Origin: Eubacterium maltosivorans
GTDB lineage: Bacteria > Bacillota > Clostridia > Eubacteriales > Eubacteriaceae
DNA: 64,000 nt
NCBI RefSeq assembly: GCF_002441855.2
Contig: NZ_CP029487.1
Span: forward strand, 4,204,349 to 4,268,348
Direction of reading: 5' to 3'
Part shown: one piece after another, positions 20,225-63,517 of the stretch
Position numbering within the stretch: the first letter of the stretch is position 1
Layout of the letters: each line of letters starts with the position of its first letter
Notes under the pieces: model-generated
Database searches by the model: none
What the model was told of the DNA's origin: nothing
The model's input: the letters and a program-made list of their open reading frames with translations, nothing else
Made by a program: the position numbers and the translations under genes

Positions 20225-20510
20225 ATCCAGAATAATCAAAACGACGAACGAGAGAAGTAGGTAATGACGGGTGTATCCAGAGAGCCGCGGCAGGTGGAAA
20301 TGCGGCAGCACAGAAATTACTGAATGGACTTGGGAGTGCGGTCTGAAACCATGAGGGAGTAGGCGCCGACGGGAGCCCCATCCGTTATCAGCGGGGTGCA
20401 TATGATGGTATGTAAAATGAGTGGGTGTGCTGTAAGGCAGTGCATCAATTTGGGTGGTATCGCAGAAGTTACAGACTTTTGTCCCTTAGTATGGGACAAA
20501 AGTCTTTTTT
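20225..20510 (+). ncRNA. Tryptophan T-box riboswitch
   Basis: A roughly 285-nt leader with T-box landmarks: AGTAGGTAATGACGGG and GGTGGAAATGCGG elements of stem I, a TGG in ACTGAATGGACTT (20325-20327) as candidate tryptophan specifier, and the T-box bulge TGGGTGGTATCGC (20451-20463). The intrinsic terminator AGACTTTTGTCCC/GGGACAAAAGTCT with six T follows (20473-20510). Uncharged tRNA-Trp would stabilise the antiterminator and allow trpB2 transcription when tryptophan is scarce. The specifier is inferred from position and from the downstream gene. Confidence 0.9.
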
Positions 20511-42015: not shown

Positions 42016-42033
42016 AGCAAAGAAATAAATATT

Positions 42034-42247
42034 TCGGTAGGTGAGGCTACCACAGGGATATGGATTACTGCCGCGAACTAGTGGAGACACTACAAGTTGG
42101 TCAACAGTTTATGTCGAATACAAGGCATTGACTAATGTAATTTCACCGCCCTGTGAAGCTAAAGCTTGAACGGTGAACTGATAAAAGACGATTTTTTTGA
42201 TATGTTGTCCTCTGTCATTGCTTGAGCTTTGGCAGAGGTTTTTTATT
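42034..42247 (+). ncRNA. M-box (ykoK) Mg2+ riboswitch with terminator
   Basis: The conserved M-box core is visible: CGGTAGGTGAGGCTACC, ATGGATTACTGCCGC, GTGGAGACACTACAAGTTGG and GGTCAACAG. An intrinsic terminator follows: CCTCTG (42209-42214)/CAGAGG (42233-42238) then six T. Mg2+ binding should favour the terminator and shut off the Mg2+ transporter gene downstream, with read-through when Mg2+ is low. Confidence 0.9.
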
Positions 42248-42442: not shown

Positions 42443-45094
42443 ATGAAAGTGATTTCAAATAATGCAAAAGACAGACTGCTGGAAGCTGCTGTTACAGAAG
42501 AAAAGGCTTTAATTAAAGTCTATGGCGCCGGCAGCTACAATGAAGAAAAGGCTTCAGAAATGCGAGAAGCTTATGGCGAAAATAAATTAAGCCGTCATCA
42601 GAGTGATTCCGTCCTGAAACGGATTTTTGACGCTTTTGTCAATCCCTTTACGATTATTTTGATCGTGCTTGCACTGGTTTCGTTTGTTACAGATGTAGCG
42701 ATGGCACCGCCGGGAGAAAAGGATCCTGTATTCGTAATAATTGTCGGAGTCATGGTACTGATCAGTGGATCACTGCGCTTTTTTCAGGAACAGAAATCTG
42801 ACCGTGCCGCCGAGAGGCTTGGCGAGATGGTCGAAACAACCGCTGCGGTCGACAGGAGCCCTGCTGGAAAAGCAGAGATTCCTCTGGATGAAATTGTGGT
42901 GGGGGATATTATCTACCTGGCGGCTGGCGATATGGTCCCAGCAGATGTGAGAATTCTGAACGCGCGTGATCTTTTTATCAGCCAGTCTTCACTGACCGGA
43001 GAAAGTGAAGCGGTTGAAAAGTATGGAAGCCCGGTAGAAAATGCGGAGGATGATCCGTTGTCCTGCAACAATCTGGCTTTTATGGGAACGAATGTGGTCA
43101 GCGGATCAGCCAAAGCGCTGGTGCTGGCAGTGGGCGATGATACTATTTTTGGTTCTATAGCCAGCCAGCTGAGCCCAAAGCAGCAGAATACAAGCTTTGA
43201 TAAAGGGGTCAATTCTGTTTCATGGGTTTTGATCCGTTTTATGCTGGTTATGGTACCTTTGGTATTTTTTGCCAATGGATTAACAAAAGGCGACTGGACT
43301 GAAGCCTTTTTATTCGCAATTTCAGTGGCTGTTGGGTTGACTCCTGAAATGCTGCCGATGATCGTCTCGGCGAATCTCGCGAAAAGCGCTGTGGCCATGT
43401 CAAAGAAAAAGGTCATTGTCAAAAATCTGAGCGCCATTCAGAATTTTGGTGCTATGGATGTCTTGTGCACGGATAAAACCGGGACTCTTACGCAGGATAA
43501 GGTGGTTCTGGAATACCCGCTGGACATTCACGGCAATGAGGACGACCGCGTTATGCGCCACGCTTTTCTGAACAGCTGGCATCAGACAGGCCTTAAAAAT
43601 TTAATGGATCAGGCTGTTATCAATCATGTGAATATGGGAACAGCCACTGTTTTAAAAGAAGAATACCAGAAAGTGGATGAAATCCCCTTTGATTTTAACC
43701 GCCGCCGTATGAGTGTAGTGGTAACTGACCGTACCGGTAAAACTCAGATGATCACAAAAGGTGCCATTGAAGAAATGCTGAGTGTATGCAGCTTTGCAGA
43801 ATATAAGGGAAAGGTTGAGCCCATCACCGAGGAGGTTCAGAATGAAATCTTAGAGCAGGTACGGCGTTATAATGATTCCGGTATGCGGGTTTTGGGTGTG
43901 GCGCAGAAGACAAATCCAGCGCCGGTCGGCGTGTTCTCGGTAGCGGATGAATCCGATATGGTACTTATCGGGTACCTGGCTTTTCTGGATCCGCCGAAAG
44001 AAAGCACTGCAGCAGCTTTGAAGGTTCTCAAAGAATATGGCGTGGGTGTTAAGGTGCTGACAGGTGACAATGAAGTGGTGACAAAAGCGATCTGCCGCCA
44101 GGTAGGTATGCCCGCCCAGAAGATACTGTTAGGCTCAGATATTGAAAAAATGGATGATAACACACTGGAAAAAGTTGTGGAGAAGACAGACATCTTTGCC
44201 AAACTTTCTCCGCTGCAAAAAGTGCGGATTGTAAAGGCCTTAAAGAGCAACGGGCACACCACAGGATTTCTGGGAGACGGGATCAATGACGCTGGCGCCA
44301 TGAAAGCATCTGACGTAGGGATTTCGGTTGATACAGCTGTGGATATTGCGAGGGAATCTGCGGATATCATTCTGCTGGAAAAAGATCTGATGGTGCTGGA
44401 AGAAGGTGTGGTAGAGGGCCGCAAGACCTATGCCAACATTATAAAATATATTAAAATGACCGCAAGCTCTAATTTTGGCAATATGTTTTCTGTTTTGGCC
44501 GCCAGTATTTTTCTGCCTATGTTGCCCATGTTGCCCATGCAGCTTTTGGTGCTCAATCTGATTTATGATATTTCCTGCACGGCCATCCCGTGGGATAATG
44601 TCGATCCAGAATACTTGAAAACGCCAAGAAAATGGGACGCTTCCTCCATTGTCAAGTTTATGCTGTGGATGGGGCCTGTGAGCTCAGTATTTGATATTAC
44701 AACCTATTTATTCCTGTTTTTCTACCTCTGTCCTATGGTTTTTGGCGGTGCGTTCCATACCCTCGGTCAAACGGCTCAAATAGGATTTATTGCACTGTTC
44801 CACGCAGGATGGTTTATAGAGTCACTCTGGACTCAAACACTGGTCATTCATATGATCCGTTCGCCAAAGCTGCCTTTTATCGGAAGTCATGCTTCATGGC
44901 AGCTGACAGGGTTAACCACTCTGGGGATTGCAGTCGGTACGATTTTGCCCTTTACCTTCATCGGGGCGGCGCTCGATATGGTACCGCTTCCGGGAATGTA
45001 TTTTCCATTTCTCGTTATCACGGTGCTGTTGTATATGGCTCTGGTAACAATGTTGAAAAAAATATTTATACGTCGTTATGGCGAACTGCTTTGA
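42443..45094 (+). CDS. mgtA: Magnesium-translocating P-type ATPase
   Basis: An 883-aa P3B-type ATPase that imports Mg2+ driven by ATP. The phosphorylation motif [12 protein letters not shown] is near residue 345; other motifs are LTGES (actuator), KGAIEEML (nucleotide site), [13 protein letters not shown] and [19 protein letters not shown]. About ten transmembrane helices, with [16 protein letters not shown] in helix 4 characteristic of MgtA/MgtB. AGGAGG precedes the ATG. It is the only gene under the M-box and is followed by its own terminator. Confidence 0.96.
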
Positions 45095-52446: not shown

Positions 52447-52839
52447 AGTATATTTGTAAAAGGCGCGTTCTGAATCAGGTATTGACTTTTGTAAAGGGAT
52501 CATGGGAATTTCGGCAACGGGCATTATGATTATTCCCGTGATGATGACACTGTTGATTGCCAGTAACTTTACAGGTAGAATGATTTTGAAATACGGAAAA
52601 GCGCCAAGACTTTCGGTTGTGTCTTTTATCATTCTCTTGCGCAGATGCAGTCGATCATATTTGTGTCGTCATGCCGGCATCCCTTGTTGACAGTTTTAAC
52701 ACGTTGTTGGAGCAAAGCAGTCATTGCATTATCGATAGATCATGTTTTTCTGATCTGTGCAGCAGCGGGTGTTCCTGGGATTATATCCTCTTTCCTTAGG
52801 AAGGAAGCCCCCCTGATTTGGAAAATAAGGACGTAAAAA
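52447..52839 (+). pseudogene. Decayed MFS (DHA2/EmrB-like) remnant
   Basis: Fragments in two frames resemble the C-terminal third of a drug-H+ antiporter: MGISATGIMIIPVMMTLLIA and SNFTGRMILKYGK, then in another frame FVSSCRHP and KAVIALSIDHVFLICAAAGV with a closing SSFLRKEAP. No start, promoter or intact frame. The roughly 170 bases after it, up to the OLE promoter, hold no gene. Confidence 0.5.
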
Positions 52840-53011: not shown

Positions 53012-53040
53012 TTGTGATAAAGAAAGGAAGGTGATATAAT
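53012..53040 (+). promoter_or_regulatory. OLE RNA promoter
   Basis: TTGTGA (53012-53017), 17-base spacer, TATAAT (53035-53040), placing the transcript start near 53047. Confidence 0.75.
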
Positions 53041-53046
53041 CTTATA

Positions 53047-53668
53047 CAGGTGGTGCAGTATTCTAGTCGGCACTGTTGATCACCAGGGCGGGCCTAAAAA
53101 TCCGTCGAAGGGCATATCGATGAAGTCCCTTGTGAATGCTTTTGACGCCCAGTTGGGGGTGTTCACTGGGGGTTAAGGAAGATGGGGCAACCTGCAATGG
53201 CATGCGGGCTTCTGACCCTGCTTCCGTGGAGACCTGTCTAATGATAGGGAAAACCTGTGAATGTGTTTCATTCTGTAGTGGAATGGAGTGCTGAAACAGT
53301 GTAGCCTGCCTTGAGTGGCTTAGGTGGATGGGCTGACAGTTTTATAATTTCCAGGGCCCGGAGAGTATAAAATATTGCGTTCGAAACCTAATCTGCAAAA
53401 GAGGCTAAGGATCAATGGGTGTTGTCGAGGAAAACTCCTAGACTGCTCGCAAGAGGTATAGTGGGGATTATAGTGCACACTTAGTGGTAATTCAGTCCTG
53501 CATTCGGTGACGCTGCAGACTACATGTAAAGGGAAACCGCTTTGACGGCGACGTCTTAGTCATGTTTTGGGAAATCCTACTGAACCTATGTCGCAAAGTT
53601 TACTCATTATGCTACCACCCCATGAAAGAATGTGAAGGAATTATGCGTCGCATAATTCCTTTCTTTTT
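53047..53668 (+). ncRNA. ole: OLE RNA (ornate, large, extremophilic)
   Basis: About 620 gene-free, highly structured bases lie directly upstream of an OapA-like gene and the tlyA-nadK-argR-recN operon, exactly the published OLE context. Length fits OLE (about 600 nt). Recognisable conserved-looking blocks include GGGCGGGCCTAAAAATCCGTCGAAGG-type text near 53089-53112, TGGGGCAACCTGCAATGG, GTCGAGGAAAACTCC and a GGGAAACCGC segment. OLE forms a membrane-associated ribonucleoprotein with OapA and is linked to ethanol, cold and Mg2+ stress. The match was made by eye, not by covariance search. Confidence 0.88.
53634..53668 (+). terminator. Terminator at 3' end of OLE RNA
   Basis: AAGGAATTATG and CATAATTCCTT arms with a CGTCG loop, followed by TTCTTTTTAG. 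The oapA ribosome binding site begins 10 bases later, so some read-through must feed oapA unless it has its own promoter. Confidence 0.85.
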
Positions 53669-53687
53669 AGTTTAAAATGGAGAATTG

Positions 53688-54269
53688 ATGAAAACAAACA
53701 AGAAAAATTTGTCTAAAAAGGAATTAAAAGAGCGCAAGCACCGCCATTGGGTGATTGGAGTTTCCATTGGAACCTTCTTTTCGACCATGCTGGTCACTTA
53801 TATTTCAGATACGCTTTTAGCTCATACGGGCCTTCTGATTTCTTTTCTTATTTTATTTGCCATTATTGCCTTTGGGATACTGGCGGACATTGTGGGCGTG
53901 GCTGTGACTGCAGTCAATATTGAGCCATTTAACGCCATGGCAGCTAAGAAGTTAAAGGGCGCTAAGACCGCGGTCTCGCTGGTCAGGAATGCCCCAAGGG
54001 TATCCAATGTCTGCAACGATGTTATCGGAGATATCTGCGGTATTGTCAGTGGCGCTACTGGTGTCAGCATTGCCACACAGCTTCTGCGGTTTTATCCGCT
54101 CTTTAACGCGGTTGTTTTGAGCCTGGTAATGAGCGGCTGTATCGCCTGCCTGACGGTCGGGGGTAAGGCCCTTGGAAAGGACCTTGCAATGAAAAACAGT
54201 ACATCCATTATCCACGGCTTTTCGCTGCCTGTGGCAACCGTTAAAATTTTATTCAAGGGCTGCGAATAG
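53688..54269 (+). CDS. oapA: OLE-associated protein OapA
   Basis: A 193-aa membrane protein with a strongly basic N terminus (MKTNKKNLSKKELKERKHRH) and four predicted helices (about residues 20-45, 50-75, and two near 125-160). A DUF21-like segment around ADIVGVAVTAVNIEPFNAMA is present. OapA binds OLE RNA at the membrane as a dimer. The ATG at 53688 with GGAG upstream is preferred over the adjacent TTG. The immediate OLE RNA upstream and tlyA downstream support the call. Confidence 0.88.
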   Translation: MKTNKKNLSKKELKERKHRHWVIGVSIGTFFSTMLVTYISDTLLAHTGLLISFLILFAIIAFGILADIVGVAVTAVNIEPFNAMAAKKLKGAKTAVSLVRNAPRVSNVCNDVIGDICGIVSGATGVSIATQLLRFYPLFNAVVLSLVMSGCIACLTVGGKALGKDLAMKNSTSIIHGFSLPVATVKILFKGCE

Positions 54270-54337: not shown

Positions 54338-55189
54338 ATGAAAAAAGAACGATTTGATAAATATCTCGTTGATCACGGCTTTTTTGATTCTCGGGAAAAG
54401 GCTAAAAAAGCAATTATGGCTGGGTTGGTCATGGTGAGCGGCCAGGTCAAGGATAAAGCGGGGGATCAGCTGGTGGTGGATTTGGACCCATCCGTTATCG
54501 AGATCAAGGGCAATCCTATCCCTTATGTAAGCCGGGGAGGGCTCAAGCTGGAAAAAGGGCTTGAGGTTTTTCCATTTCCAGTGCAGGGTGGTATTTTCCT
54601 TGATATCGGTGCGTCGACTGGTGGTTTTACAGACTGCCTGCTGCAAAACGGGGCCGCAAAAGTATACTCGGTGGATGTGGGATATGGGCAGCTTGACTGG
54701 CGTCTCCGCGGAGATGAACGGGTAGTGTCCATGGAACGGACTAATTTCAGAAATCTGGAAAAGGGCGCTATCCCGGATATTGTAGACGGAACAGTTATGG
54801 ATGTTTCCTTTATTTCGATCACAAAACTGCTGGACGCGATTCGCTTGTTTTTAAAGGATGGGGGAAAAGGAATCTGGCTCATCAAACCCCAGTTTGAGGC
54901 GGGACGTGATAAGGTGGGCAAGAATGGCGTTGTTCGGGATAAAAAAACTCACAGAGAGGTATTGGACCAGACACTTTCGCAGATTATGGAAAAGCATTTT
55001 AAAGTTTTTGGCTTGGATTATTCACCCATACAGGGCCCTAAGGGAAATATAGAGTTTCTTTGCTTTGTTGAGAAGCTGCCGGAGTGTAAGACAGCAAGGT
55101 TTGAAAACCGGGAACAAATGATTGAACAGGTGGTTAATGCAGCCCATAGCGCCTACAGTAAAAAGGATGGGGAAAACAATGATGAATGA
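54338..55189 (+). CDS. tlyA: TlyA-type 2'-O-methyltransferase (YqxC)
   Basis: A 283-aa rRNA methyltransferase/hemolysin-like protein. An N-terminal S4 RNA-binding domain (ERFDKYLVDHGFFDSREKAK, GLVMVSGQVKDKAGD) is followed by an FtsJ-like domain with YVSRGGLKLEKGLEVF, the SAM site FLDIGASTGGFTDCLLQNGA and LIKPQFEAGRDKVGKNGVVR. In other bacteria it methylates 16S/23S rRNA. Part of the OLE operon; overlaps nadK by 11 bases. Confidence 0.94.
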   Translation: MKKERFDKYLVDHGFFDSREKAKKAIMAGLVMVSGQVKDKAGDQLVVDLDPSVIEIKGNPIPYVSRGGLKLEKGLEVFPFPVQGGIFLDIGASTGGFTDCLLQNGAAKVYSVDVGYGQLDWRLRGDERVVSMERTNFRNLEKGAIPDIVDGTVMDVSFISITKLLDAIRLFLKDGGKGIWLIKPQFEAGRDKVGKNGVVRDKKTHREVLDQTLSQIMEKHFKVFGLDYSPIQGPKGNIEFLCFVEKLPECKTARFENREQMIEQVVNAAHSAYSKKDGENNDE

Positions 55190-56075
55190 AGTCGGCATCT
55201 ATCTCAACTGCGATAAAAGCGACAGTGTGGAAATGGCCGCGAAGTGCATCCGCTATCTAAGAGGGCGGGGAATACAGGTCGCTTTGCTCAATAATCAGAT
55301 GGAGCCAGACGGGGACCCTGGGGTGCATATATACCCTAAGGATGAATTTTATAAAAAGCCGGACTGCATTGTGGTATTGGGCGGAGACGGAACACTGCTG
55401 TCTGTTGCCAGGGCTTCTTGCATTTACGATATGCCCCTTTTTGGCATTAACCTTGGAAAGCTGGGCTTTCTGACAGAAGGTGAAGCCTCTAACTATGAGC
55501 ACCTGTTAAAGGCGCTGTGCAACGGGGAGTTCTTCCTCGAGAAACGGATGATGCTGTCCTCCTGCATTAACCGGCCGAATGGTGAGAGCGAGACCTTTCT
55601 GGCTCTTAATGACGTTCTGGTAAAAAATACCGGATTCCGCATGATGGATATTAAAGCTTACGCGGGTAAAGAAGGGGAGAACATGATCGATTTTTTCAGA
55701 GCGGACGGGCTGATCATTGCCAGTCCGACGGGATCGACGGCTTATTCGCTGGCGGCTGGTGGTCCGGTGGTGGCGCCAGGAACAGATGTTATGATTGTCA
55801 ATCCCATCTGCCCGCATCGGCTTCATGACCGTGCCTATGTAATTGCCGCAGAGGAAAATATCACCATTCGTTTTGATGAGCGCGAACGGGACATTATCGT
55901 GAGCTTTGATGGACAAAACATTATCCCCATTGGGGCGAGAGATGAGGTCGTGGTGAAAAAAGCACCCTATACTGCCAATTTAGTTCGGCTCAATAATGTG
56001 AATTTCTACGATCGTCTGAGGAAAAAGCTTTCTGACGATGTGCTCAGCAATATCAGCAATAAAGACAGGAGGTAG
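55179..56075 (+). CDS. nadK: NAD kinase
   Basis: A 298-aa ATP-NAD kinase that makes NADP+. IVVLGGDGTLLSVARA is the GGDG motif, followed by GINLGKLGFLTEGE and ADGLIIASPTGSTAYSLAAG. ATG at 55179 (or 55182) lies 7 bases after GGATGGGG inside the end of tlyA. Co-transcribed with argR, 5 bases downstream. Confidence 0.94.
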   Translation: MMNEVGIYLNCDKSDSVEMAAKCIRYLRGRGIQVALLNNQMEPDGDPGVHIYPKDEFYKKPDCIVVLGGDGTLLSVARASCIYDMPLFGINLGKLGFLTEGEASNYEHLLKALCNGEFFLEKRMMLSSCINRPNGESETFLALNDVLVKNTGFRMMDIKAYAGKEGENMIDFFRADGLIIASPTGSTAYSLAAGGPVVAPGTDVMIVNPICPHRLHDRAYVIAAEENITIRFDERERDIIVSFDGQNIIPIGARDEVVVKKAPYTANLVRLNNVNFYDRLRKKLSDDVLSNISNKDRR

Positions 56076-56080
56076 CTGCC

Positions 56081-56533
56081 GTGAAAGTAGCGAGACAGAC
56101 TAAAATCATTGAAATTATTGAAAATAATCAGATTGAAACCCAGGAAGAACTAGCCGAGCACCTAAAGCAGAGTGGCTACAAGGTGACACAGGCCACGATT
56201 TCAAGGGATATTAAGGAGCTTAAGCTCATTAAGGTTATGGGGCAGGACGGACGTCAGTATTATTCTTCCTTAAAGGATATGGGCACCATATACGATGAGC
56301 GAGTGGTGGCTGTTTTCAGAGAATCCGTTTTAACGGTAGATACTGCTACCTTTTTGGTAGTGCTCCATACACTGCCAGCCATGGCTCAGGCGGCGGCTCT
56401 GGCTATTGACTCTATGGAGTGGAATGAGGTGGTTGGTACTGTGGCAGGCGACGACACTATTTTTGTCGCTGTCCGGGAACAAGATGACGTCAACGAAATT
56501 GTAAGCCGCTTTAAAAAATTGATGAAGCCCTGA
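56081..56533 (+). CDS. argR: Arginine repressor ArgR/AhrC
   Basis: A 150-aa regulator. The N-terminal winged helix contains SGYKVTQATISRDIKELKLI; the C-terminal domain with LVVLHTLPAMAQAAALAIDS and GTVAGDDTIFVAVRE binds arginine and hexamerises. GTG start with AGGAGG upstream. Its place between nadK and recN is conserved in Firmicutes. Confidence 0.95.
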   Translation: MKVARQTKIIEIIENNQIETQEELAEHLKQSGYKVTQATISRDIKELKLIKVMGQDGRQYYSSLKDMGTIYDERVVAVFRESVLTVDTATFLVVLHTLPAMAQAAALAIDSMEWNEVVGTVAGDDTIFVAVREQDDVNEIVSRFKKLMKP

Positions 56534-56582: not shown

Positions 56583-58286
56583 ATGCTGTTAAATATCGTC
56601 ATTAAAAATTACGCCCTGATCGAGGCCTTAAATATCGACCTGGATCCAGGACTCAACGTGATTACTGGGGAAACTGGAGCCGGTAAGTCCATTGTCATCG
56701 ATGCGCTTACATTGCTGCTGGGACAGCGGGGCAATAAGTCTAATATTCGCCACGGAGCGGATAAAATGGTGGTGCAGGGGTTGTTTGATATTGACGGAAA
56801 TCAGGCAGTATCCGCTAAACTGGCCGAATTTGGTATTGAGCCAGAGGATGGGCGCCTCATACTAACCCGTGAGATTGATACCAAGGGGAAAAATGTGTGT
56901 CGGGCAGATGGGATTATCATTACCGTAACACAGCTCCGGGCCATCGGTGATAACCTGATTGATATTCACGGGCAGCATGAGCACCAGTCGCTGTTTCAGC
57001 GGGAGAACCACCGTCATTTTTTGGATGATTTTGGAGGTGACCCGGCCAGGGAGCTGCTGAACGATGTGGCGGGAGACGCTGCGAGGCTCAAAGAGCTTAG
57101 TCAGAAAATCCGCGGTCTTGAAAAGGACGAGCGGGAAATGGAACGCCAGAAGGAAATGTTCTTGTATGAGCTCAAGGAGATCCGGGCAGCCAAGCTGATC
57201 GACGGTGAGGAAGAAAGTCTGGAGAGCGACAAAAAGATTCTCGTCAACAGCGAGCAGCTTTTCAGAAGTGCTAATGAGGCCTACCAGGTCTTGAACGGGG
57301 ACGAAAATGCTTACCAGACCGCCCTCCTGGCATTGCTGACCGAGCTGGGCGACCGCATAAGGGATATTTCGGAGATCGACAGCGGTTTTAAAGCCTATGA
57401 TGCCGTAGTGGAATCGGCCTATCAGGAGCTTGAGAATTTGTCCTTTGAAATTCGCAGCTATATAGACGGCATTGACTTTGACATGAATAATCTAGATGAA
57501 GTGGAAAAACGCCTGGGTGTGATCACTGGGCTCAAACGAAAATATGGAAGCTCGATCAGTGAAATTCTGGAATATGGCGCGCTTTTGGAAGAACGGCTTT
57601 CAGGGCTCATAAACCGCGATGAACAGATCGAGAAATTTCAGAAACAGTATAAAAAGATTCTGAGAGACTATGAAAGCCGGGCAAATGCGCTGCATGAAAT
57701 GCGCAAAAAATCCGGTCAAGTCTTTAAGGAAGCCCTTGAACGTGAATTGAAAGACCTGGCTATGGAAAAAACTGTGGTGCAGGTACAAATCAGCCAGGAA
57801 AAGAAGCTGATCTCACCGAAGGGGCAGGATCAGGTTGAATTTTTGATCTCGGTCAACCCCGGGGTGCCGCCGAAGCCGTTGCGCAAAATTGCTTCGGGAG
57901 GGGAGATTTCCCGCATCATGCTCAGCATCAAAAGTATATTCGGCGACCGCGACCGGATCCAGACAATGATTTTTGACGAAATTGACACCGGTATCAGTGG
58001 GAGGACAGCTCAGGCAGTGGCTGAGAAGGTTTTTGAGCTTAGCAAGACCCACCAGATTATCTGTATTACCCATCTGCCACAGATTGCCTCGATGGCGGAT
58101 AAGCATTTTCTGGTCGAGAAAAAATCGGACGACGACAGTGTGGAGGTGAATTTTGGGCCGCTTGGAGAGCGGGAACGCCAGAACGAGCTGGCCCGGATGC
58201 TCAGCGGTGCAGAGGTGACTCAAACGACCCTTGACCATGCTGCCGAAATGCTGGAAATGACCAAAAAACTAAAAAAGACAAAATAG
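56583..58286 (+). CDS. recN: DNA repair protein RecN
   Basis: A 567-aa SMC-like ATPase for double-strand break repair. Walker A in GETGAGKSIVIDALTLLLG, long coiled coil in the middle, ABC signature IASGGEISRIMLSIK and Walker B MIFDEIDTGISG, then ICITHLPQIASMADKHFLV. AGGAGAGG precedes the ATG. Last gene of the OLE-linked operon. Confidence 0.96.
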   Translation: MLLNIVIKNYALIEALNIDLDPGLNVITGETGAGKSIVIDALTLLLGQRGNKSNIRHGADKMVVQGLFDIDGNQAVSAKLAEFGIEPEDGRLILTREIDTKGKNVCRADGIIITVTQLRAIGDNLIDIHGQHEHQSLFQRENHRHFLDDFGGDPARELLNDVAGDAARLKELSQKIRGLEKDEREMERQKEMFLYELKEIRAAKLIDGEEESLESDKKILVNSEQLFRSANEAYQVLNGDENAYQTALLALLTELGDRIRDISEIDSGFKAYDAVVESAYQELENLSFEIRSYIDGIDFDMNNLDEVEKRLGVITGLKRKYGSSISEILEYGALLEERLSGLINRDEQIEKFQKQYKKILRDYESRANALHEMRKKSGQVFKEALERELKDLAMEKTVVQVQISQEKKLISPKGQDQVEFLISVNPGVPPKPLRKIASGGEISRIMLSIKSIFGDRDRIQTMIFDEIDTGISGRTAQAVAEKVFELSKTHQIICITHLPQIASMADKHFLVEKKSDDDSVEVNFGPLGERERQNELARMLSGAEVTQTTLDHAAEMLEMTKKLKKTK

Positions 58287-58417
58287 TAGCAGTCCTCAAA
58301 ATGCGAAATGCGCAAAATGAACAAAATAGTGCATTAACAAGTGAATAATTTTTAGGTAGAATAAAGCAAGGTAGAGAAACTTAAAATTAATGGTTAATGA
58401 AAAGGAGATTAGTAATT

Positions 58418-59077
58418 ATGGAACGCAGAGTACCATTGGGATTATCAAACAAACACATTCATCTGTCCCAGGAGGATTTAGAAGCTTTATTCGGTGAAGG
58501 CTATGAATTGACACCGAAAAAATTTCTGGTTCAGCCTGGACAGTTTGCAGCGGTTGAAAAGGTCGATATTGTAGGACCAAAGAACACATTGGCAGGGGTA
58601 CGTGTTTTAGGTCCGGTTCGTCCGGAAACACAGCTGGAATTAAACATCGCAGACGGCGTTAAGTTAGGTATCCATCAGGTTCCGATTCGTTTATCAGGTG
58701 ACCTGGAGGGTACACCGGGCTTTACCATTATCGGGCCAAAGGGGAAAGTAGTTAAGGAAAAAGGGATGATCGTCGCTGAAAGACATATCCACTTATCCAC
58801 CGAAGAAGGCGCTAACTATAATCTGAAGGACGGCGATATTGTTTCGGTTCGTCTGAAGGGACCTCGCGGCCTGATTTTTAATAATGTGCTGGTGCGTGTT
58901 GGGGATAAACACAAAATGGAAATGCACATTGATATTGAAGAAGGCAACGCAGCCGGTGCGCGCAACGGACAGCTGGCCTGTATCGTTGATAAGGAAACCG
59001 CTACGATTGATTACCTGACCATCTGCGACGATGGAAGTCCGCTTCCGATGGTTGGAGACCTGCCGGAAAAAGAATAA
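58418..59077 (+). CDS. pduL: Phosphate propanoyltransferase PduL
   Basis: A 219-aa phosphotransacylase that interconverts acyl-CoA and acyl-phosphate, feeding ATP formation through acetate/propionate kinase. Two PduL repeats each carry a zinc-binding HIHLS (SNKHIHLSQEDLE and AERHIHLSTEEGA). It lacks the extra N-terminal encapsulation helix of microcompartment PduLs, so it is probably cytosolic, as in acetogens that use PduL as phosphotransacetylase. AAAGGAG precedes the ATG at 58418. Single gene upstream of lgt. Confidence 0.94.
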   Translation: MERRVPLGLSNKHIHLSQEDLEALFGEGYELTPKKFLVQPGQFAAVEKVDIVGPKNTLAGVRVLGPVRPETQLELNIADGVKLGIHQVPIRLSGDLEGTPGFTIIGPKGKVVKEKGMIVAERHIHLSTEEGANYNLKDGDIVSVRLKGPRGLIFNNVLVRVGDKHKMEMHIDIEEGNAAGARNGQLACIVDKETATIDYLTICDDGSPLPMVGDLPEKE

Positions 59078-59924: not shown

Positions 59925-60596
59925 GAAAACCACTTGCTATGCAAGTGGTCCGGAAAAGCTTAAAGCGAGGGTACAAAAAACCTCCTATCAAGGGGAAAAT
60001 AAGGTAAGGTTTGGCAGCCATACTTAAAATCCAAATAGGAGGTAAGTTTTTATGAAAGACAAAAATAATTTATCACATACGGTATATCAATGCAAATATC
60101 ACATCATTATGATCCCCAAATATAGGAGAATGATAATCTACAACAAATTAAAAAGAGATATTGGGCAAATATTAAGAACTTTAATCGAAAGGAAGCCAGG
60201 GATTGAAATCATTGAAGCAGAAGCGTGTCCGGATCATATTCATATGTTGGTGGAGATACCACCGAAATACAGCATATCGAGCTTTATGGGATACTTAAAA
60301 AGCAAATCGACCTTAATGATTTTTGATCGACATGCGCATTTGAAATACAAATATGGAAACCGCAAATTTTGGGCGAGAGGATATTATGTGGATGCTGTTG
60401 GAAAAAATGAGAAAAGAATCAAAGAGTACATACAGCAGCAATTATGGGAAGATAAATTAAGCGACCAAATAAGCATGAAGGAATATATTGACCCGTTTAC
60501 GGGTGAATCGGTGAAATAGGCAAATAGAAAAAAGCCCCTTTGAGGGGCCGCCTGTAAAAGCGCTATGGTTGTCAAATCTTCAGAGCCCGGAAGGGT
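59925..60596 (+). mobile_element. IS200/IS605-type insertion sequence
   Basis: A single-transposase element. A perfect 9-bp hairpin ACCACTTGC-TAT-GCAAGTGGT (59929-59949) marks the left subterminal end, and GCCCCT-TTG-AGGGGC (60534-60548) lies just after the transposase. The exact right cleavage site is not clear and may be masked by the neighbouring IS3 element. Confidence 0.7.
60052..60519 (+). CDS. tnpA: IS200/IS605 family transposase TnpA
   Basis: A 155-aa HUH-type Y1 transposase. The HUH motif is in ACPDHIHMLVEIPPK, and the catalytic tyrosine is likely in KRIKEYIQQQ near the C terminus; KFWARGYYVDAVGKN is the usual family segment. TAGGAGG precedes the ATG. Full length for IS200-type enzymes, so the copy may be active. 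Confidence 0.93.
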   Translation: MKDKNNLSHTVYQCKYHIIMIPKYRRMIIYNKLKRDIGQILRTLIERKPGIEIIEAEACPDHIHMLVEIPPKYSISSFMGYLKSKSTLMIFDRHAHLKYKYGNRKFWARGYYVDAVGKNEKRIKEYIQQQLWEDKLSDQISMKEYIDPFTGESVK

Positions 60597-60688
60597 GATC
60601 AGCCCCTTGTCAAGTAGACAAGTAAAATATCTAAAATAAGACGATAGGTATCCGCCATATCAGAACACAGATATGGCGGATATTTATG

Positions 60689-61654
60689 TTATGCACACCA
60701 TTTGGCTTTGTAGGCTTCTAGCCGTTTGTTTTCAGAAATCGGGTACTGAATAGCTGCTTCTGAAGCCAGTGCCTCCTGCCTTACCTCAGATGGTGTTTTA
60801 CAATGAAATCTGTCCTGTGGTCTTTCATTGGCATAAAATTTCATATATCCATGGATGGCAGAATACAGAGAGCCTTCGTCGGTGATCTTATACATACAGT
60901 ACATGTCAGACTTGATAATTCCCCACAAGCCTTCTGTGGGTCCATTATCAATACAGTGTCCGACACGTGACATGGATTGAGCCATTCCCTGTTCTTGAAG
61001 CTTTGTCTGGAATACCTTGCTCGTATACTGATAGCCTCTGTCGCTGTGAAAGAGTGGTCTGGCTTCCGGATTCTGTTCCACTGCTTTGTCATATGTATCA
61101 AATACAAGCTTGTTGTCATTTCTCCGGCTGATAACATAAGCTACTGGATAACGGTCATAAAGGTCAAATATGGCGCTGAGATACAACTTCTTTCCGGTTT
61201 CGGGAATTTTAAATTCTGTTACATCCGTAGCCCATTTTTCATTAGGTTTTCCTGCATTGAAATCTCTTTTGAGCTTATTTTCAGCAGTAGCTTCCGGCTT
61301 GGAAGAATGGTATGTTTTCTTCTTTTTTCTAATAACAGAATGTATTCCAAGTTTCTTCATAATCCTATGAATCCGGTTCTTGCTATAGTTCGTATGATTG
61401 AAATGGTTTATCCAACTTGTCATTCTCCGGTAGCCTAAGATGCGGCAAAAACGTTCATCGTACTCTTTTATCAATTCTGCCAGCTTTAAATTCTCTGCCT
61501 CCCGTTCAGGAACTGAGCGGTGCAGCCATTTGTAATAAGCTGCGCGTGAAATTTCCAACTGTCTGCACATCCAGTTGATGCTCCATTGTTTTTTTTCAAT
61601 AAAATATTGAATCGCCATATATTTCGATTCGAAGCGTTGTTTTCCAAATCTCAC
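60689..61654 (-). CDS. IS3 family transposase OrfB (DDE integrase)
   Basis: A 321-aa rve-type integrase. N-terminal HTH_21 part (LEISRAAYYKWLHRS, CRILGYRRMTSWI), then the DDE domain: WATDVTEF, LFHSDRGYQYTS and NGPTEGLWGIIKSD. GTG start overlaps the OrfA stop. Probably made mainly as an OrfAB fusion by -1 frameshifting upstream. Confidence 0.94.
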   Translation of the reverse strand: MRFGKQRFESKYMAIQYFIEKKQWSINWMCRQLEISRAAYYKWLHRSVPEREAENLKLAELIKEYDERFCRILGYRRMTSWINHFNHTNYSKNRIHRIMKKLGIHSVIRKKKKTYHSSKPEATAENKLKRDFNAGKPNEKWATDVTEFKIPETGKKLYLSAIFDLYDRYPVAYVISRRNDNKLVFDTYDKAVEQNPEARPLFHSDRGYQYTSKVFQTKLQEQGMAQSMSRVGHCIDNGPTEGLWGIIKSDMYCMYKITDEGSLYSAIHGYMKFYANERPQDRFHCKTPSEVRQEALASEAAIQYPISENKRLEAYKAKWCA

Positions 61655-62331
61655 ATCCTTTCGAATTCTTTCGCTTTTTTTAACAGTTCCACTGCCATAT
61701 CCTTTTCTTCAAGCTGGCTTTTGAGCCGTATATTTTCTCGGCGCAGCCGTTCCAGTTCATCCACTTCGTCATCTGCTTTATGGTGCCCGCGCCGATCAAC
61801 CAAACCAGTTTCACCATTAGCATCATATTTTTTCACCCAGGAGTAAACCTGGCTGTATGAAACATCAAACAAAGAAGCGGTTTCTTTGTAATCTCTATCA
61901 TGGGCAATGCAATATTTAACAATTGCTTCTCGTTCTTCCAAAGTTGTTTTTCTCCGTGCTTCTGCCATATAGACCTCCCTCTTAGGATTATAATCCTTAA
62001 GCTTTCTATTGGCATTATACAACGAAACCCAATGCAACAAAACATCTGCTGTACTAATTTTGTGTTTTGCGGCAAGTTCAACTGCGGAGCCTTTTCCAGA
62101 AAGATACTCTTCAACCACCATTGTTTTGAATTCTGCTGTATAAGATTTATTACCTGCCGAACACAAGAGTCCCTCTGCTCCTTGCTCTTGATACTGCTGT
62201 ACCCATCGTTTAAAGCACCCCGGTGCTGACTTATATCCTAACTCATGGGCTTTTTCTTCCAAGGAAAAAAGCCCATTCAGATATCCCTCCACAATATTCA
62301 ATTTTTCTTCAGATGTATATTTTCTATACAT
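61651..62331 (-). CDS. IS3 family transposase OrfA
   Basis: A 226-aa protein with two helix-turn-helix units (LNIVEGYLNGLFSLEEKAHE..., REAIVKYCIAHDRDYKETAS, VSYSQVYSWVKKYD) and a C-terminal leucine-zipper-like coil (VDELERLRRENIRLKSQLEE), longer than the typical OrfA. It binds the ends and multimerises. An A7G slippery run near its 3' end leads into OrfB. Confidence 0.9.
   Translation of the reverse strand: MYRKYTSEEKLNIVEGYLNGLFSLEEKAHELGYKSAPGCFKRWVQQYQEQGAEGLLCSAGNKSYTAEFKTMVVEEYLSGKGSAVELAAKHKISTADVLLHWVSLYNANRKLKDYNPKREVYMAEARRKTTLEEREAIVKYCIAHDRDYKETASLFDVSYSQVYSWVKKYDANGETGLVDRRGHHKADDEVDELERLRRENIRLKSQLEEKDMAVELLKKAKEFERM
61674..61681 (-). other. A7G programmed -1 frameshift site
   Basis: On the minus strand AAAAAAAG occurs 20 bases before the OrfA stop, and OrfB lies in the -1 frame, as needed for OrfAB fusion synthesis in IS3 elements. 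Confidence 0.65.
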
Positions 62332-62584: not shown

Positions 62585-62965
62585 ATGGATGTGAACAATA
62601 TATTGGGATCAAACGAAGGCAAGCTTCGTATCATACAGGAAACCGTACCGGGCAAACAGGTTACATTGGCCCATATTATCGCTGGTCCGGACCCGATCGT
62701 TTACCAGAAGCTGGGCTTAAACCCAAGCGTGGATTATAATAAGGCGGCCATTGGTATTTTGAGCATGACGCCAGCGGAAATTGCTGTTATCGCAGGGGAT
62801 ATGGCCATCAAGACTGCCCCGATCGATATGGGCTTTATTGACCGTTTCAGCGGCACCTTAATTTTTACAGGTCGTATTTCCGATGTTAAGTCAGCGGTCA
62901 ATGCAATTTTGAGCTACCTTCAGGGGACATTGGGCTTTACCATCTGCGAAATTACAACAACATAG
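62585..62965 (+). CDS. eutS: Bacterial microcompartment shell protein EutS/PduU-like
   Basis: A 126-aa circularly permuted BMC-domain protein. LRIIQETVPGKQVTLAHIIA, IGILSMTPAEIAVIAGDMAI and LIFTGRISDVKSAVNAILSY are typical of EutS/PduU hexamers with a beta-barrel lid. AGGAGG precedes the ATG. Followed 15 bases later by eutP, with no enzymes or other shell genes before the terminator. Confidence 0.93.
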   Translation: MDVNNILGSNEGKLRIIQETVPGKQVTLAHIIAGPDPIVYQKLGLNPSVDYNKAAIGILSMTPAEIAVIAGDMAIKTAPIDMGFIDRFSGTLIFTGRISDVKSAVNAILSYLQGTLGFTICEITTT

Positions 62966-62980
62966 GATGAAGGCGACTTT

Positions 62981-63517
62981 ATGAAAAAGATGATTTTGGT
63001 TGGCAGGAGTGAATGCGGAAAAACTACGCTGCGTCAGGCGCTGAAGGGTGATACCATTCAGTATGAAAAAACGCAGTATGTCAATCACTTCGATGTAATT
63101 ATTGATACACCGGGCGAATACGCCGAAACCAATACACTGGCGCGGGCGCTGGCCCTCTATTCTTACGAGGCGGACGTGGTGGCACTTTTGATTAATGCGA
63201 CTGAGCCCTATTCCTTATATCCGCCAAACGTTGCTCCTGTGGCAAACAGGCCGGTGATTGGGATTGTTACGCAGATCGACCATCCCTGTGCCAATACAGA
63301 GCAGGCCATCGAATGGCTTAAACTGACTGGTGCTGATCCGATCTTTCCGGTGAGCTCTTATACCGGAGAAGGGATCTGGCAGCTTTTAGAATACCTGAAG
63401 GAGCCAGGAGATGTTCTTCCCTGGGAGAGCCAGGAGGAGGCCGAACAGGAAAGAAACGTAAAATCCACAAAATACGAGATCCAGGAATTTGGACAAAAGG
63501 ATTTTGAATTTATTTAA
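62981..63517 (+). CDS. eutP: EutP/PduV-like GTPase-fold protein
   Basis: A 178-aa P-loop protein: Walker A GRSECGKTTLRQAL, DVIIDTPGEYAE (switch II region) and IGIVTQIDHPCA in place of the GTPase NKxD. EutP/PduV proteins associate with ethanolamine/propanediol microcompartments; some have acetate kinase or positioning roles. Extra C-terminal acidic tail. Operon partner of eutS. Confidence 0.92.
   Translation: MKKMILVGRSECGKTTLRQALKGDTIQYEKTQYVNHFDVIIDTPGEYAETNTLARALALYSYEADVVALLINATEPYSLYPPNVAPVANRPVIGIVTQIDHPCANTEQAIEWLKLTGADPIFPVSSYTGEGIWQLLEYLKEPGDVLPWESQEEAEQERNVKSTKYEIQEFGQKDFEFI

Follow-up and report, generated by a model that had tools for sequence, protein, structure and literature searches.

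OLE RNAs are membrane-associated and among the largest structured RNAs of bacteria; the genetics drawn on here come from a single alkaliphile, H. halodurans. In that organism the OLE-associated membrane protein OapA has been likened to CNNM/CorC transporters (PMC11332333), and the double change D100A + D104A in OapA is reported to give a severe phenotype (PMC9723947). Two further partners, OapB and OapC, are described as having other roles besides OLE (PMC11332333, PMC9723947). A GTDB survey of OLE RNAs gave 2,822 hits in Bacillota (PMC11332333), and the family genomes compared below are probably already among them.

The occurrence of OLE in mesophilic anaerobes is already known, and the RNA considered here belongs to a well-known class. 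Clostridium acetobutylicum is a mesophile. The cryo-EM work on its OLE RNA (PMC12286853) is grounds for rejecting OLE as a feature of extremophiles only. A literature search found no paper in which OLE RNA is named alongside Eubacterium limosum, Acetobacterium or xseB, and the main text of the E. limosum primary-transcriptome paper, which used dRNA-seq on strain ATCC 8486, does not mention OLE (PMC5651825).

The OLE RNA and its flanking signals

The DNA analysed is a stretch of 64,000 nucleotides from Eubacterium maltosivorans (hereafter the window, and the host). It occupies positions 4204349-4268348 of the host genome (one contig, 4,337,501 bases) and holds the only OLE copy of that genome. 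The features at and around it are listed below.

52487-52830, + strand: decayed DHA2-type MFS transporter gene, in two pieces in different frames
53012-53040, + strand: predicted sigma-A-type promoter of ole, TTGTGA, 17-nt spacer, TATAAT, TG-extended -10
53034-53634, + strand: OLE RNA (match to RF01071); predicted transcript ~53047-53668
53634-53662, + strand: predicted intrinsic terminator of ole, 13-bp stem, T-run to ~53668
53688-54269, + strand: oapA, OLE-associated membrane protein A, 193 aa (DxxxD motif, CNNM-like fold, co-occurrence with OLE)
54338-55189, + strand: tlyA, S4 and FtsJ-type rRNA methyltransferase (NCBIfam TIGR00478, 238.3 bits, cut-off 185.8)
55122-56075, + strand: nadK (PF20143, PF01513); longest ORF, probable start near 55180
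56081-56533, + strand: argR, arginine repressor (PF01316, PF02863)
56583-58286, + strand: presumed recN (Pfam RecF/RecN/SMC N-terminal domain), named from synteny

The Rfam OLE covariance model, RF01071, matches 53034-53634 on the + strand with 450.4 bits (E 5.6e-129; gathering score 50), and the match covers the full model, positions 1-616, untruncated, with 29 model positions of one arm skipped. The OLE RNA in the window is confirmed as a genuine member of its class. A protein-coding reading of 53034-53634 is rejected, as every ORF that overlaps it is shorter than 60 aa. The match opens with the -10 box, so the RNA probably starts near 53047; the first ~13 positions of the match are probably -10 box and spacer and hence not RNA. 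Taken from the promoter to the T-run, the predicted transcript likely extends from ~53047 to ~53668, near 620 nt.

The Rfam helices are conserved, with covariation behind them, across the 23 OLE RNAs found in the family. These were aligned, the Rfam pairs were counted, and the counts were set against 500 shuffles and against slid pairings. Standard pairs fill 87.0% of cells, compared with 77.1% in shuffles and 39.2-47.3% in slid pairings; both sides have changed in 77 of the 146 pairs, with 381 such cells against 138.7 in shuffles, and the covariation score is 0.374 against 0.191. None of the 500 shuffles reached any of the five helix measures. Helices 6, 7 and 10 are weaker, pairing in 63.9, 60.0 and 71.7% of cells across the 23, and in the window OLE itself 131 of 146 mapped pairs are standard and 15 are non-standard. 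For the first 101 nt, folding shows no advantage over shuffled sequence (z +0.82, 162/200 as good). The original prediction, made from the sequence alone, had proposed an OLE RNA here, in a gene-free structured transcript of about 620 nt, to be checked by covariance model; the search returned a significant match, the OLE helices hold in 23 RNAs, and the predicted transcript has the proposed length.

The RNA varies across the family in two places. An arm at 53236-53250, which we take to lie near P7/P8 in the literature numbering, is short in genera g1, g2, g3, g4 and g9 and long in g6, g7 and g8. The CCUCC segment of P6 (anti-Shine-Dalgarno) is missing from the OLE of all four OLE-positive members of the host genus; CCTCC was not found in 14 of the 23 family OLEs, and the nine that carry it are those of five Acetobacterium and two g4 genomes, in one context, and two g8 genomes, in another. 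In H. halodurans this segment has been linked to bS21 binding, and mutants that preserve pairing are reported still to bind bS21 (PMC12054373), so its absence weighs little against the OLE reading. The CCUCC segment is a non-defining feature of the class.

The putative ole promoter has a -35 box matching at four of six bases, and its 2.1-kb region holds 11 promoter-like sites where 4.0 are expected; by itself the promoter call in the window is weak. Across the family, 21 of 22 loci have an exact TATAAT in the 30 nt that precede the conserved OLE start, against 2 of 261 control windows, these loci, like all others counted here for promoters and terminators, being related and so not independent events. 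The remaining locus has TAAAAT instead, and one genome (G037) is left out of both family counts at a contig end. The -35 boxes are weaker across the family, with 3 to 5 of 6 bases matching.

For comparison outside the family, the best 80 of at least 547 relatives' named oapA loci were taken, with L086-L089 set aside as copies from family genomes. A motif placed OLE in 65 of the remaining 76 loci, the other 11 being left out of the promoter count, and among these 65 an exact TATAAT occurs at 37 (14/780 in controls) and an extended -10 (TGnTAnnnT) within 45 nt at 55 (56/520 in controls), including 18/18 loci where ispA ends within 300 nt. By these counts, an own promoter is thus common for OLE. 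It cannot be counted as a new feature, because one has already been reported for ole of H. halodurans (PMC9723947).

The predicted terminator folds with -15.4 kcal/mol (z -5.95), and 0 of 200 shuffles are as good. In the family, OLE is followed by a stem of at least 7 bp with a T-run at 20 of 22 loci, whereas control windows show such a stem in 24 of 317 cases; of the two exceptions, G022 has a 6-bp stem and in G036 none was found. Among 61 outside-family loci (four more had no 3' motif), again from the best 80 of at least 547, 16 have a terminator after OLE, compared with 53 of 1319 controls, and in 11 of these 16 the stem contains CTATCAGC on its 3' strand. The TTGTGA/TATAAT promoter and the strong terminator originally proposed are both present in the window, and their use is to be expected from these signals.

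A side observation concerns the form of the hairpin outside the family. The arrangement GCTGATAGC...GCTATCAGC, or a close form of it, follows OLE in L094, L098, L100, L105, L109, L119, L123, L129, L135, L140, L146, L152 and L164, with near variants in L093 and L159. Within the best 80 of at least 547 relatives it spans several clostridial genera, and its likeness exceeds what an ordinary terminator needs; it may represent a conserved 3' part of OLE.

oapA starts about 25 nt past the terminator. As no promoter-like site was found on the + strand between 53041 and 53688, oapA in this genus probably needs read-through. A TATAAT-like box after the terminator was seen by eye at 4 of 5 loci in Acetobacterium and 4 of 4 in genus g7, where oapA could be expressed apart from OLE.

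OapA and the other OLE-associated proteins

The protein encoded after OLE reaches no Pfam or NCBIfam model at its cut-off, and its CNNM match is sub-threshold (16.7 bits; cut-off 28.4). It carries DVIGD at residues 111-115, that is, a DxxxD motif at D111/D115, and both aspartates are invariant in alignments of 13 rows (with at least two repeats) and of 24 rows. The AlphaFold2 model has a pLDDT of 87.6 and a pTM of 0.76, and its top five Foldseek matches are chains of CNNM/CorC Mg2+ transporters; the best has E 4.4e-3 at probability 1.00, and no match reaches E 0.001. With moderate confidence, the model points to a CNNM-like helical membrane fold, in agreement with what has been published for H. 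halodurans OapA (PMC11332333). Of the 40 family genomes, 23 have the gene, exactly those with OLE, and it adjoins the 3' side of OLE in the window and in 22 of the 23, the two lying on separate contigs in G022. The proposal of an OapA-like membrane protein is borne out by motif, fold and shared distribution; in the suggested HMM check no family cut-off was reached.

Candidates for the other partners lie elsewhere in the host genome than the OLE locus. The OapB candidate has OLE-associated protein B (7k9b) as its best PDB match (E 1.2e-11), without a Pfam match at 1e-5, and its gene is just upstream of infA. The best PDB match of the OapC candidate, a YbxF/L7Ae homologue encoded just upstream of rpsL, is YbxF (4lck, E 6e-10). 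These homology tests belong to the host genome; in relatives the genes were recognised by position and by eye, OapB-like genes at 30 of 30 family loci with an infA anchor (found in 30 of 36; a short ORF in G031) and OapC-like genes at 34 of 35 rpsL loci. Readable OLE-negative genomes keep the OapB-like gene in 12 of 12 cases and the OapC-like gene in 14 of 14, by eye, which is as expected because the literature gives both proteins other roles. A gene for bS21 was found in 36 of the 40 family genomes, that of the host among them.

Gene neighbourhood and loss of OLE in relatives

The OLE unit stands ahead of tlyA-nadK-argR-recN, as first proposed, with TIGR00478 and Pfam matches downstream. The same proposal held that the partners xseB and ispA were missing and replaced by a decayed MFS gene. 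They are indeed absent beside OLE but not lost from the family, as xseB is found in 37 of 40 genomes; it lies upstream of OLE by ~134.9 kb in the host, 116.6 kb in G024 and 118.3 kb in G025, and on a different contig in G023. Displacement of xseB-ispA is a genus trait, seen at ~117-135 kb in all three measurable genomes, and its reading as a peculiarity of the host is rejected accordingly.

The decayed MFS gene is as originally described. Its pieces, 52487-52639 and 52711-52830, match residues 288-340 and 473-512 of an intact transporter (513 aa) from a sister species. In three sister species (G023, G024 and G025) the intact gene, with an open frame of 513-520 aa, lies directly upstream of OLE, and the G024 copy is assigned to the DHA2 efflux family by TIGR00711 (251 bits; cut-off 230.2). 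The gene is decayed solely in the host among the genomes of the genus compared. Since the three sister species keep it intact at this place, its decay postdates the displacement, and as the cause of displacement it is rejected.

All five OLE-positive Acetobacterium genomes have the order xseA-xseB-ispA-OLE-oapA-tlyA-nadK-argR-recN. In the fetched stretches of the other seven OLE-positive genera, ispA and xseB gave no matches (the stretch of G020 reaching 308 bases upstream), and the genes upstream of OLE differ among genera g3, g4, g6, g7, g8 and g9, compared by one row each (six of eight OLE-positive rows; G038 and G031 omitted). The OLE unit thus heads its operon as predicted, with no xseB-ispA in front, but this is not special to the host; in the family, Acetobacterium alone keeps xseB-ispA in front.

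Other elements of the window were observed in passing. An M-box Mg2+ riboswitch (42026-42184, 113.6 bits) lies 11 kb upstream of OLE and precedes an 883-aa P-type cation ATPase (42443-45094); both concern Mg2+ handling, and the linkage is possibly chance. A T-box leader at 20235-20489 scores 96.5 bits, barely over the gathering score of 93. Downstream, 60052-62331 holds genes that by eye resemble insertion sequences (a short IS200-like transposase and a two-ORF IS3-like transposase), and 62585-63517 holds two microcompartment-like genes, also by eye (a shell protein and a small GTPase), with a phosphate propanoyltransferase near them at 58397-59077.

OLE is found in 30 of 67 genomes of the order under stricter filters and in 5 of 19 Acetobacterium genomes. 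In all 11 readable OLE-negative Acetobacterium genomes (of 14), ispA and tlyA are direct neighbours, ~26-99 bp apart by match ends, without ole-oapA between them. Genome G029 of genus g5 is also OLE-negative and has other genes between ispA and tlyA, and no OLE match was found in the fifth member of the host genus (G026, 80% complete). On a FastTree tree of tlyA, nadK, recN and argR (39 rows), Acetobacterium genomes without OLE fall into two groups, G012/G013 (support 1.0) and G018 to G017 (support 0.899). OLE-positive species are placed between these groups, with support of 0.978 at the node that parts G012/G013 from the rest. The tree leaves out G008, G009, G011, G022, G026, G032 and G037, nadK is missing for four outgroup rows, and the outgroup rows are taken as OLE-positive by label, OLE not having been located in L091. 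Because of this split, and because OLE lies beside tlyA in other genera, two losses are favoured over gains, and the pattern is best read as two separate losses of the OLE-oapA pair in Acetobacterium.

Of the family genomes without OLE, 16 of 17 have a CNNM gene over the Pfam cut-off, compared with 9 of the 23 that have OLE (Fisher p 0.0006, uncorrected for shared ancestry); matches are taken as MpfA-type from the CNNM domain alone. This distribution agrees with the published anticorrelation of OLE and MpfA. OLE and a CNNM gene coexist in all four OLE-positive members of the host genus, the host included, which suggests that the transporter was there before OLE was lost, and part of the OLE function may be redundant with the CNNM gene of the host.

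A working model and its alternatives

We favour, at a probability of roughly 0.8, the reading that this is a true OLE RNA of the Eubacterium limosum group which, with its partner OapA, passes through transcription, read-through and assembly of a membrane particle with a role in stress. RNA polymerase would most likely start at the extended -10 promoter (53012-53040), copy ~620 nt and stop mostly at the terminator (53634-53668), giving free OLE RNA, and OapA would most likely come from transcripts that read through. The RNA would fold into its conserved structure and bind an OapA dimer, presumably at the membrane, if binding follows H. halodurans. OapB and OapC, encoded beside ribosomal-protein or translation-factor genes, would join the particle, again as in H. 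halodurans, and by the same analogy the particle may help the cell against Mg2+, alcohol, cold or carbon stress. The direct basis in the sequences compared here consists of the RNA identity, the conserved helices, the promoter and terminator sequences, the oapA linkage and the OapB and OapC genes.

Two alternatives concern how the RNA is made. The region might be just a long structured leader on the oapA-tlyA mRNA, acting in cis to regulate oapA, and no free OLE particle would then form. Such a leader would fit an RNA lying directly 5' of oapA, a terminator so close to the oapA start and an oapA with no promoter-like site of its own, but the covariance match is to a class shown to work as free RNA (PMC9723947), a class in which about 25% of nucleotides are more than 97% conserved (PMC12265935, Table 1), and the boxes seen by eye past the terminator in two other genera leave oapA possibly expressed separately there; we regard this explanation as improbable. 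OLE might also arise mainly by processing of a longer polycistronic transcript that starts upstream, as ole of H. halodurans is reported to be transcribed inside a large operon as well (PMC9723947, PMC12265935). To this we give low odds, given the decayed gene in front, the upstream neighbours that vary by genus and the -10 box that stays with OLE.

A third alternative accepts the RNA but takes it as a relic, made redundant by an MpfA-type transporter and heading for loss as in many Acetobacterium. The CNNM gene of the host, the excess of such genes in OLE-negative genomes and the repeated loss of OLE-oapA on the favoured tree are what this reading would lead one to expect. It is nevertheless very improbable, for the four OLE-positive genus members all carry an intact, nearly identical RNA, the three besides the host encode an OapA with 95-99% identity to that of the host, and promoter and terminator have been kept while the adjoining MFS gene decayed. 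The OLE particle of the working model remains the favoured reading.

Within it, the terminator between ole and oapA in Eubacterium might act as an attenuator: with oapA made by read-through only, termination, perhaps under feedback from the OLE particle (e.g. with Mg2+ or stress), would set the ratio of RNA to OapA. This is a speculative and rather unlikely extension; if true, it would make OLE both a particle and a cis-regulator of its partner OapA. For specialists, a genus in which OLE and CNNM genes coexist, and in which a terminator lies between ole and oapA, is potentially useful. So is the sister genus Acetobacterium, where the unchanged site holds ole-oapA in some species and is cleanly empty in others, which offers a natural experiment. 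Comparisons of, and deletions in, these acetogens could reveal the task of the particle and whether MpfA, thought to replace OLE elsewhere, makes OLE dispensable.

Set beside the OLE ribonucleoprotein of H. halodurans, taken here from its description, the unit in the window is alike in its full-length covariance match, in having oapA directly downstream, OapB and OapC genes and a putative promoter of its own. It differs in the predicted terminator between ole and oapA, in the OLE unit standing at the operon head, in an RNA without the CCUCC segment and in the CNNM gene of the host, mpfA being absent from H. halodurans according to PMC11332333; relative to the Rfam consensus, one arm is short. 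The OLE RNA of Clostridium acetobutylicum, described by cryo-EM as a dimer (PMC12286853), likewise comes from an anaerobic clostridium and, at 577 nt, is close in size, the feature on which the two are compared. With the MpfA/CorC (CNNM) transporters, the OapA model shares a likeness to the CNNM membrane domain and a weak sequence match, but OapA is without the further domains of MpfA (PMC11332333), carries DxxxD and is tied to OLE RNA.
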